Below, one piece after another: positions 1,796-19,031 of a stretch of DNA of 64,000 nt. The position numbers and the translations under genes were made by a program. The DNA comes from Cyanidiococcus yangmingshanensis. Lineage: Eukaryota; Rhodophyta; Bangiophyceae; Cyanidiales; Cyanidiaceae. The stretch is from assembly GCA_013995675.1 (NCBI GenBank), contig VWRR01000005.1, forward strand, positions 1 through 64,000, written 5' to 3'. How positions within the stretch are numbered: position 1 is the first letter of the stretch; the number at the start of each line of letters is the position of its first letter. The notes under the pieces were generated by a model. The model saw nothing but the letters and a program-made list of their open reading frames with translations, was not told where the DNA came from and searched no databases.

Positions 1796-2490
1796 CCCTC
1801 CAGTCGTGGTTCTGTTCGACGCGGTGCGCAGCACTAGCACCGACACACACGCACGCACCCTGGTGGGACCGGATCATGCTCCGACCCCACAGCTCTCAGC
1901 AACCATAAAAATCATATGAACCTTTTTTTACAAACACAGGGGAACCGAAAAAAAAAAAAAGAAAAACTGCGCAGCTCAAGAAATAAAGCGCCCAGAACCG
2001 CAAAGACAGTAACTCGTCCTGGAGCCACGACCAATTCTCTCTACAGTTACTGGGCGCACCAGACGCACTACAGGCACTGGAGGCACCGGCGAGCGCCTCC
2101 GCACACCCACCTGCAGTCGACTGAGCTGAGCACTACCAACACCAAAACCAACACCAAAACTAAAACCACCAACAATAACAATAACAACCAGTATTCTAGA
2201 CTGAGCGATAGCAAAAAAATAAATAATAAAATAAAAAACAAAATGCAGAAACCGACCCAGCCAGAAACGATACGTACGACGCGTCGACCAGCTCGCACAG
2301 CTGGCCAGCGAGGAATAGATGCATGGATACGCAGCGGCCATCGCGCCACGCTGTCCCGTTGCGGGCGCGCCCTCGTACCGTCCCTAGAAACGGAGGGACG
2401 CTCTCGGGGGGAGCACCTGATCACCGACGATTTTGGCGAAATCAACAAATCACGCCAAAATGTCCCTCACATACTCAGGGACAAGAATAT

Positions 2491-3490
2491 AAAAAGAAAC
2501 CGGAGAAAACCCAAAGAACAAGGCCAGAAACCAGCCTTGAGACCCTGTGAAAACACAGCTTCGGGCCCCGGCTCGACGCCACCAGTCGATAGACTGGCCC
2601 GGGCCAGCCAGTGCACCCAATCACCGACGATTCTCAAAATCACAGCGAGGCATACCAAACCAGGCCTGAAGCTACCAATAACACGTGTGTAAAAAGAAAC
2701 CGGAGAAAAACTGAAGAACAAGGCCAGAAACCAGCCTCGAAAGACTCCGAAAACACAGCTTCGGGCCCCGGCTCAACGCTACTGTCTGGCAGACTGGCCC
2801 GGGCCAGCCGGTGCACCCAATCACCGACGATTCTCAAAATCACAGTGAGGCATACCAAACCAGGCCTGAAGCTCTCAGTAACACGTCTGTAAAAAGAAAT
2901 CGGAGAAAAACTGAAGAACAAGGCCAGAAACCAGCCTCGAGAGCCTGTGAAAACACAGCTTCGGGCCCCGGCTCGACGCTACTGTCTGGCAGACTGGCCC
3001 GGGCCAGCCGGTGCACCCAATCACCGACGATCCTCAAAATCACAGCGAGGCATACCAAACCAGGCCTGAAGCTACCAATAACACGTCTGTAAAAAGAAAC
3101 CGGAGAAAAACTTAAGAACAAGGCCAGAAACCAGTCTCGAGACCCTGTGAAAACACAGCTTCGGGCCCCGGCTCAACGCTACTGTCTGGCAGACTGGCCC
3201 GGGCCAGCCGGTGCACCCAATCAGCGACGATTCTCAAAATCACAGCGAGGCATACCAAACCACTCTTGAAGCTCTCAATACCATATACGTAAAAAGAAAC
3301 CGAAGAAAAAAAGAAGAACAAGAACAGAAACCAGCCTCGAGACCCTGTGAAAACACAGCTTAGGCCCCGGCTCAACGCTACTCTACCACAGACTGGCGTG
3401 GGCCAGCCGGTGTGCACCCAATCACCGACGATCCTCAGACTCTCAACAAAACACACCAAACCGTCCCTCACATACTAATCAACAAATATA
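2491..3490. repeat. 200-bp tandem array, five units
   Basis: The landmark AAAAAGAAA recurs at 2491, 2691, 2891, 3091 and 3291, an exact 200-bp period, with a degenerate sixth start near 3492. Each unit also contains GCTTCGGGCCCCGGCTC, CACCCAATCACCGACGA and CATACCAAACCAGGCC in the same order. Units two to four are most alike; the first and fifth are more diverged. Copy B has a single degenerate unit (about 7030-7290), so the array grew inside copy A. The open frames seen in each unit on both strands are a by-product of the period and match no protein I recognise. Confidence 0.9.
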
Positions 3491-17861: not shown

Positions 17862-17986
17862 TCGCACGAGAACTCGCTCTGTACTGGTGCTGCGATCCGA
17901 ACGAGCCTAAGACCAGGTCCCAACAGCGACCCAGGCAGCCTACGGCGAGGCGCATGCGTACACCGCGACCAAGCGAGATACGTCCC

Positions 17987-17995
17987 TTTATATAT
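17987..17995 (+). promoter_or_regulatory. TATA-like element upstream of the permuted tRNA gene
   Basis: TTTATATAT lies about 35-40 bp before the first base of the tRNA 3' half. In this gene the internal B box (about 18043-18053) comes before the A box (about 18096-18106), the reverse of the normal order. An upstream TATA helping Pol III is therefore a reasonable inference. It could also serve the divergent NOL10 gene. Confidence 0.45.
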
Positions 17996-18028
17996 CAATT
18001 TTGGCCCCCGTCTCAGAGCAATGTGGCG

Positions 18029-18124
18029 ATGAGAAGGTCATGGGTTCAATTCCCATCGGAGGCTACGTGGCGTGACGGCGTTCTCGAAGCCTTCGTAGCT
18101 TAGTGGTAGAGCATCTCACTAGTA
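18029..18124 (+). tRNA. Circularly permuted tRNA-Thr(AGU) gene
   Basis: The 3' half comes first, at 18029-18064: nt 38, anticodon 3' stem TGAGA at 18030-18034, variable loop AGGTC, T arm ATGGG-TTCAATT-CCCAT, acceptor CGGAGGC, discriminator T. After a 24-nt spacer (18065-18088) the 5' half follows at 18089-18124: acceptor GCCTTCG, TA, D arm GCTT-AGTGGTA-GAGC, A, anticodon stem TCTCA, loop CTAGTA. Joined 5' half to 3' half, they give a full 72-nt cloverleaf with a 7-bp acceptor stem (one G-U), a 5-bp anticodon stem (TCTCA/TGAGA), a 5-bp T stem and loop CTAGTAA, so the anticodon is AGT (Thr). The join falls between positions 37 and 38, the canonical intron site. CCA is not encoded. In the known Cyanidioschyzon cases such genes mature through a circular RNA intermediate. 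Confidence 0.9.
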
Positions 18125-18129
18125 GTTGC

Positions 18130-18133
18130 TTTT
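18130..18133 (+). terminator. Candidate Pol III terminator (TTTT)
   Basis: TTTT begins six bases after the tRNA 5' half ends, as expected at the end of a short Pol III transcript. Just before it, TTGCT (18126-18130) is complementary to AGCAA (18017-18021) ahead of the 3' half. That pairing could bring the two splice sites together for circularisation. Confidence 0.5.
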
Positions 18134-18184
18134 GCTCGAGAGACTCGCCACAAACAAAGTTCTTTTGCTCAGTCTGTCTCAAAT

Positions 18185-19031
18185 ATGGCTACTGAGTGTG
18201 AACTGGAGACTGTGCTGATAGCTCTAAGAAGCGATACAGTCGAGGACGCCGTGATCGAGCTGCAGTCGACGCTTGAGCGTAACACTAGGGCGCAAAAACG
18301 CAGGGACTTGGCGCCTATTGTTCTCGTCAGCGCTGAGCGTGGAGAGCTCGGTTCGGGAACGAGCACTTGCGGCCGTTGGGCACTGGCGAGTGCTCGACAC
18401 CCTCTATGCCTGCACCGCTGAGAACGGTCAAGTCCGACTGGAGGGCCTGGCCGAAGCGGAGGCACAGACGCTGCAGCAGAGGTTTCGTGGCGCTGGTTGG
18501 CTCGTTGGTGCCCCTGTTCTCTCGACGGATGGTGCAGGGCCGGAGTGCGAGCTGCCCGGGGGTACAGTGGCCCCGACGAGGATGACTTTGTGCGCAACGA
18601 GGCCGCCCGATGAAGTAAAAGTCGGTGGTGTTTTCCGTGTTCCAGATGCGGCACTGAGCTCCGAGTACATCGATGAGGAGGAACTGCTACCGAGCACAGA
18701 ACTTGACGGCTCCCGAGATCAGACTGCGAATGGGCTTGCGCGCTCGGACTGCAGCGGCGCGGCCGTGTTTGCTGCTCGACAGCCGTGCGCAAACTGCACC
18801 TGTGGGCGACGCGAGCAAGGCCAAGTCGACCGAGCAGCTCAAGCGGTGCCTTTGAAACAATCGGTGTCAATGACCAACGAGGAAGCATCCTCCAAGACAA
18901 CAGGTTCCTGTAACAAGTGCCATCTGGGTGACGCTTTCCGTTGCGCAAGCTGTCCGTACCTGGGTTTGCCTCCATTCAAACCGGGAGCGCCGCTGAAGAT
19001 TGAATCTAGCCTCTTGGAGGGAGACTTGTAA
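18185..19031 (+). CDS. DRE2: Anamorsin / Dre2, cytosolic Fe-S assembly protein (one apparent frame break)
   Basis: The C-terminus is unmistakable: a CANCTCG cysteine motif for one cluster, then [19 protein letters not shown] followed by PPFKPG, the second cluster motif of CIAPIN1 proteins. Dre2 passes electrons from the Tah18 diflavin reductase to the cytosolic Fe-S assembly machinery. The ATG at 18185 starts a frame ([15 protein letters not shown]) whose later codons lose homology. The conserved part lies one frame over, where the first true ATG is about residue 104 of that frame. Reading the A run at about 18294-18298 as four instead of five A's would join the two into one protein of about 281 residues, with a degenerate methyltransferase-like N-terminal domain. 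This may be an assembly error, a real lesion or a tiny intron. The gene begins 60 bp after the permuted tRNA. Confidence 0.88.

Follow-up and report, generated by a model that had tools for sequence, protein, structure and literature searches.

A circularly permuted tRNA-Thr(AGU) gene in the red alga Cyanidiococcus yangmingshanensis and further permuted tRNA genes of the same genome

The permuted tRNA-Thr(AGT) gene of Cyanidioschyzon merolae 10D was reportedly described by Soma et al. in 2007. Cyanidiococcus yangmingshanensis, the alga of the present study, is the sister of C. merolae. The available part of PMC3978253 lists 11 permuted tRNA genes in C. merolae, the spacers of which range from 7 to 74 nt. 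Table 1 of that article gives Thr(AGT) as a type II gene permuted at 37/38, with a 24-nt intervening sequence and no intron. In most of the C. merolae permuted genes, a TATA-like element lies within 50 bp and a T stretch is present, and circular intermediates and aminoacylation of the permuted tRNAs are reviewed in the same source (PMC3978253). Type II genes with the same half order and the 37/38 junction are also listed for Ostreococcus, Micromonas, and the nucleomorph of Bigelowiella natans; they encode Ser, Cys, Leu, iMet, Arg, and Asn tRNAs, and no Thr stands in that part of the table (PMC3978253). The halves are likewise reversed in permuted tRNA genes of the green alga Auxenochlorella, a distant host (PMC12633428), and of the archaeon Thermofilum pendens, which is also distant and has its junction at 59/60 (PMC3978253). 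No title or abstract start on permuted tRNAs in Cyanidiococcus was found in a search that left most subscription journals outside. The words "permuted" and "tRNA" occur only in the reference list of PMC13353863, and the main texts of PMC9812998 and PMC13062707 contain neither word.

In the present study, we analyzed a 64-kb window, which is the whole stretch of positions 1 to 64,000 of contig VWRR01000005.1. Positions 18029-18124 on the plus strand are a circularly permuted tRNA-Thr(AGU) gene with a 37/38 join and a 24-nt spacer. The 3' half (18029-18064, 36 nt) holds tRNA positions 38 to 73 and comes first. It ends with the discriminator U73 without a CCA, and T18064 is followed by ACG in the DNA. 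The intervening sequence (18065-18088, 24 nt), expected to cap the acceptor stem of the precursor, separates it from the 5' half (18089-18124, 36 nt), which holds positions 1 to 37 with the anticodon AGT at 18121-18123. This half order and the close spacing on one strand represent the type II permuted layout. When the 5' half was placed before the 3' half, the resulting 72 nt was read as tRNA-Thr(agt) by ARAGORN, with seven acceptor, five anticodon, and five T-stem pairs; all four D-stem pairs were recovered with a structural descriptor. The join lies between positions 37 and 38. Direct reading of the rejoined sequence revealed the conserved residues U8, A14, G15:C48, G18G19, and U33, followed by A34G35U36, A37, U54U55C56, A58, and the discriminator U73.

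These results agree with a sequence-only reading of the same DNA. The coordinates it had proposed for the two halves and the 24-nt spacer are exact to the base, and the complete 72-nt cloverleaf with an AGU anticodon and a 37/38 join was recovered by ARAGORN with its stems closed. It had also named Cyanidioschyzon and a few green algae as known carriers of permuted genes; for C. merolae, the same permuted Thr, junction, and spacer length are published in the available part of PMC3978253. The isoacceptor, the 37/38 junction, the 24-nt spacer, and the lack of an intron are common to the C. merolae Thr(AGT) gene and the gene examined here (PMC3978253). We conclude that the two genes, likened by isoacceptor, junction, spacer length, and intron state, are very likely orthologs. 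The gene is a further example of a rare but known arrangement, and the added value of the present study is the comparison of two related permuted sets, above all the permuted Glu(CTC) gene described below.

The tRNA-Thr(AGU) gene is very likely functional, judging from its sequence features. Among the 27 long ORFs of the window, 18 were counted for codon use; they contain 580 Thr codons, of which 246 are ACC or ACT. A DNA search for another copy of tRNA-Thr(AGU) returned only the two halves. None of the 21 Rfam tRNA matches of the genome was read as Thr(AGU) by ARAGORN and by eye, with L009 and L028 unassigned. The sequence-only reading had named an intact conventional tRNA-Thr(AGU) gene as one of two joint findings that would count against it, and neither the DNA search nor the 21 Rfam matches contained one, although these searches for a conventional copy are not exhaustive, given the many interrupted tRNAs of this genome. 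We are highly confident that the locus is a working nuclear tRNA-Thr(AGU) gene in permuted form, probably single-copy, and that the permuted C. merolae tRNA-Thr(AGT) gene is its ortholog.

The most probable of the rejected alternatives is a dead remnant, in which two neighboring tRNA-Thr genes were reduced to their inner halves, now without function, and the tRNA is supplied by a conventional gene elsewhere. Duplication with loss of the outer segments is the origin proposed for permuted genes in the available part of PMC3978253, and the function of the present gene is predicted from its sequence. However, the stems and conserved residues are all intact, promoter-like and terminator-like signals are retained, no other copy was found by the DNA search, and the layout and spacer length are the same in C. 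merolae. We consider a remnant to be improbable.

Signals resembling those of transcription flank the locus. A promoter-like element, CCTTTATATATCAATTTTGG, occupies 17985..18004 on the plus strand, with a TATA-like core at 17987-17995, and starts 44 nt before the 3' half. It was scored with a matrix of 20 columns built from the upstream regions of 20 other tRNA genes of the same genome; 19 genes passed the seed filter and one had no usable segment, leaving 18 contributing genes, four of which are permuted. The tRNA-Thr(AGU) gene of the window was left out of this training. The element at 17985 scored 28.0 bits, which was the best value on either strand of the 64-kb window, and the next-best scores were 13.9 bits on the other strand and 10.3 bits on this strand. 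None of the best 12 window sites listed was located in the spacer (18065-18088).

Elements like CTTTATATAnnnAATTTtG were found upstream of other tRNA genes in the same genome. The seed TTTATATA, with at most one mismatch, was present within 100 nt upstream of 15 of the 20 other tRNA genes, a raw count that carries no background rate. The shared element CTTTATATAnnnAATTTtG lies approximately 33-79 nt upstream of these 15 of 20 genes (loci L002-L021). This shared element is likely to be a TATA-driven RNA polymerase III promoter, and searches for hidden tRNA genes could make use of it.

A T4 run at 18130-18133 on the plus strand, after the 5' half, presumably terminates transcription by RNA polymerase III. 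Of the 20 other tRNA genes, 19 likewise have a T4 run no more than 30 nt downstream. The 24-nt spacer (18065-18088) contains no T4 run. The only other T4 run recorded in 18001-18200 was at 18163-18166, and TTTT also occurs inside the promoter-like element at 17998-18001. Therefore, a TATA-like element lies at most 50 bp upstream of the gene, and a T stretch is present downstream, with none in the spacer. Since the promoter-like site is upstream and the T4 run follows the 5' half, the layout is that of one transcription unit starting upstream of the 3' half.

The sequences flanking the two halves may pair with each other. The leader arm (18015..18022, plus strand) of the outer helix (h') of a presumed bulge-helix-bulge pairs with the trailer arm (18125..18132, plus strand), the last three bases of which are within the T4 run. 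The eight consecutive pairs comprise two G-C, four A-U, and two G-U pairs, and three of the eight use the T4 run. Eight pairs were reached by 2.4% of 4,000 random 25-mer pairs; the outer helix is only moderately unlikely to arise by chance alone. The corresponding outer helices of the other permuted genes of this genome had six (Glu), six (iMet), four (Lys), and four (Ala) pairs, and this measure is no better than chance for these genes because random 25-mer pairs reached six pairs in 16% and four pairs in 66% of cases.

The central helix was read by eye as C32:G18026, U33.G18025, and A34:U18024 with a G-G mismatch, beside a 3-nt bulge (C18027, G18028, and A18029) at the 3' cut site. In a constrained fold, it was replaced by a two-pair alternative. 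Since the central helix is weak in both cases (three pairs and a G-G mismatch, or two pairs), the bulge-helix-bulge is at most a relaxed one. When no constraint was set, the minimum-energy fold (-45.4) was lower than the fold with the tRNA helices imposed (-41.0); in the former, the anticodon stem was absent and the UGAGA of the 3' half paired with UCUCA of the leader (18011-18015). A bulge-helix-bulge at the leader/trailer junction is thus no more than plausible. When the 96-nt RNA was circularized in silico, the acceptor, T, D (three pairs), and anticodon stems were closed.

The arrangement of these signals bears on whether the halves might be transcribed separately and joined in trans as a split tRNA. 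The coding sequence does lie in two separate halves, and such tRNAs are described in archaea in the available part of PMC3218864; however, the single promoter-like site with a high score lies upstream of the 3' half and none of the best 12 falls in the spacer, the 24-nt spacer has no T4 run, and the leader is able to pair with the trailer, as a precursor acting in cis needs. We regard a split tRNA as extremely unlikely.

A permuted gene transcribed as one unit may be expressed as follows; for transcription, the circle, processing, charging, and inosine, this scheme draws on what is published for C. merolae and on general knowledge. Transcription by RNA polymerase III would begin downstream of the TATA-like element, run from the leader through the 3' half, the spacer, and the 5' half to the trailer in a single RNA, and end at the T4 run. 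Pairing of the leader with the trailer would then form a helix next to the anticodon stem, and cuts by the tRNA-splicing endonuclease would fall before 18029 and after 18124. A ligase, for which RtcB is present, may join the cut ends to give a circle of 96 nt. The 24-nt spacer would be removed from it by RNase P and tRNase Z, and CCA would then be added. A34 may be converted to inosine, allowing the tRNA to read ACU and ACC.

Candidate enzymes for several of these steps were found in the genome. There were two PF01974 matches for the splicing endonuclease, matches to RtcB, and six PF00383 deaminase matches, among which ADAT was not singled out. PF09511 (Trl1-type ligase) gave no match, a blank that is uninformative because none of the control genomes gave a match either. 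The RtcB matches (L026 and L027, G000:C5:165663-166977) are two overlapping pieces in different frames that cover profile positions 1-235 and 215-426. Since the pieces are in different frames, a short intron, a programmed shift, or an assembly error may interrupt the RtcB gene.

Conventional tRNA searches did not detect the gene. The sequence-only reading had stated that a standard scan would miss it or call two fragments, and ARAGORN without introns and Rfam at its gathering cut-offs both found nothing at the locus and no tRNA in the whole 64-kb window. A strict descriptor of type II permuted tRNAs was applied to both strands of the window. It yielded one candidate in 64 kb, which had 5/5 T-stem, 7/7 acceptor, 5/5 anticodon, and 4/4 D-stem pairs; the proposal of a circular permutation is borne out by this being the one fully paired candidate in the window. 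The same descriptor applied to 400 dinucleotide shuffles of the window gave no fully paired candidates and two looser ones.

In a laxer test, doubled 160-nt tiles were passed through ARAGORN with introns allowed. This yielded three matches, one Thr(agt) and two Ala, all in overlapping tiles at 18029-18124. The doubled-tile scan is weak evidence alone because it also fired in 29 of 500 shuffles. We also built a covariance model from nine tRNAs of the genome in permuted order with N linkers, the tRNA-Thr(AGU) gene among them. The gene scored 72.5 bits and was the sole match in the window at E up to 10, a score that is partly circular because the gene itself is one of the nine training rows. A chance fold or an assembly artefact, to which the firing of the lax scan in shuffles lends some color, has a negligible probability in our view given that none of the 400 shuffles was fully paired under the strict descriptor, the promoter-like site is in place upstream, and the same gene is known in C. 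merolae.

Four more permuted tRNA genes were identified in this genome, and each was read as a tRNA by ARAGORN once its parts were rejoined. The Rfam tRNA search of the genome gave at least 20 matches at E up to 1 and at least 21 at E up to 10, with 63 of 292 candidates scored. Junction positions and intron edges of the four genes were assigned by hand. Permuted tRNA-Lys(TTT) is located at L016:1507-1616 (G000:C12) on the minus strand, with the junction at 59/60 and a 38-nt spacer; both values are the same in C. merolae Lys(TTT) (PMC3978253). Permuted tRNA-Ala(TGC), at L019:1479-1559 (G000:C1) on the plus strand, has a 59/60 junction and an 8-nt spacer, again as in C. merolae (PMC3978253). The permuted initiator tRNA-Met(CAT), at L021:1457-1549 (G000:C13) on the plus strand, has the 50/51 junction of its C. 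merolae counterpart, whereas its spacer is 21 nt as opposed to 74 nt in C. merolae (PMC3978253). The fourth gene, type II tRNA-Glu(CTC) at L020:1954-2063 (G000:C6) on the minus strand, has a 37/38 junction and a 23-nt spacer; Glu is absent from the list of 11 in C. merolae (PMC3978253). A T-arm intron of approximately 15 nt was left out when the parts of this gene were rejoined. A TATA-like element was found upstream of each of the four genes, and Glu(CTC) has its own T run.

Three of the four genes match the C. merolae entries of PMC3978253 in isoacceptor and junction, and two of these also match in spacer length. Seven of the 11 C. merolae genes (Leu TAA, Gln CTG, Leu CAG, Thr CGT, two Gly CCC, and Arg CCT) were not seen in our search, which was not exhaustive. 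We consider it fairly probable that the permuted set partly differs from that of C. merolae: the Thr, Lys, and Ala genes would be frozen with the same junctions and with spacers of 24, 38, and 8 nt, iMet would share the junction but differ in spacer length, and Glu(CTC) would be extra. If permutations were gained or lost between sister genera, their origin is testable by comparison.

If these assignments are correct, a probably essential tRNA has been kept in circularly permuted form in two genera, with junction and spacer length unchanged. Such persistence argues that permuted genes are stably maintained and functional rather than transient accidents. Since the two permuted sets overlap in part, comparing them would offer a way to date gains and losses. 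It is also suggested that tRNAs required by the cell are overlooked when this genome is annotated with ordinary tRNA methods.

The covariance-model search covered 25 of 27 loci; L024 and L025, which overlap L001, were left out. It gave 28 matches at E up to 1, from which L001 (the tRNA-Thr(AGU) gene) and L020:1954-2063 were accepted. The match L021:1452-1536 led to the type III gene. Readings of L020:1535-1614 and L016:1529-1598 as type II were rejected on inspection of the alignments, and L016 proved to be type IV. The remaining 23 of the 28 matches were taken as tRNAs matching in part, without one-by-one inspection. Twelve loci (70,018 bases), including L022, L023, L026, and L027 of the 25, gave no model match at E up to 10.

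A conventionally ordered tRNA-Glu(TTC) with an insertion in its D-arm was read by eye at L020:1441-1570 on the plus strand, where ARAGORN had called Ser. It has a TATA-like element at L020:1400 and lies approximately 380 bp from the permuted Glu(CTC), and the two genes converge. This pair possibly represents traces of a local duplication.

The genome analyzed here comprises 12,072,675 bases in 20 contigs, and the window has a GC content of 55.4%. The available parts of PMC13353863 and PMC9812998 give 12.0-12.1 Mb, 54.6% GC, and 20 contigs for C. yangmingshanensis and 16.5 Mb, 55.0% GC, and 20 contigs for C. merolae; the C. merolae genome is larger, at 16.5 Mb as opposed to 12.07 Mb here. No telomere repeats were found in the window or in 36 loci, including the end of contig C16. 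The absence of repeats would be odd if this genome is one of the published assemblies, which are nearly all telomere to telomere (PMC13353863). In two protein searches, the closest relatives of the window proteins had 75-98% identity. Galdieria partita, at 59%, was the closest named red alga among the matches listed in the window protein search. A tandem array at 2490-3437 of the window contains 4.7 copies of a 200-bp unit with 90% matches and sits in a stretch with a strong AT skew.
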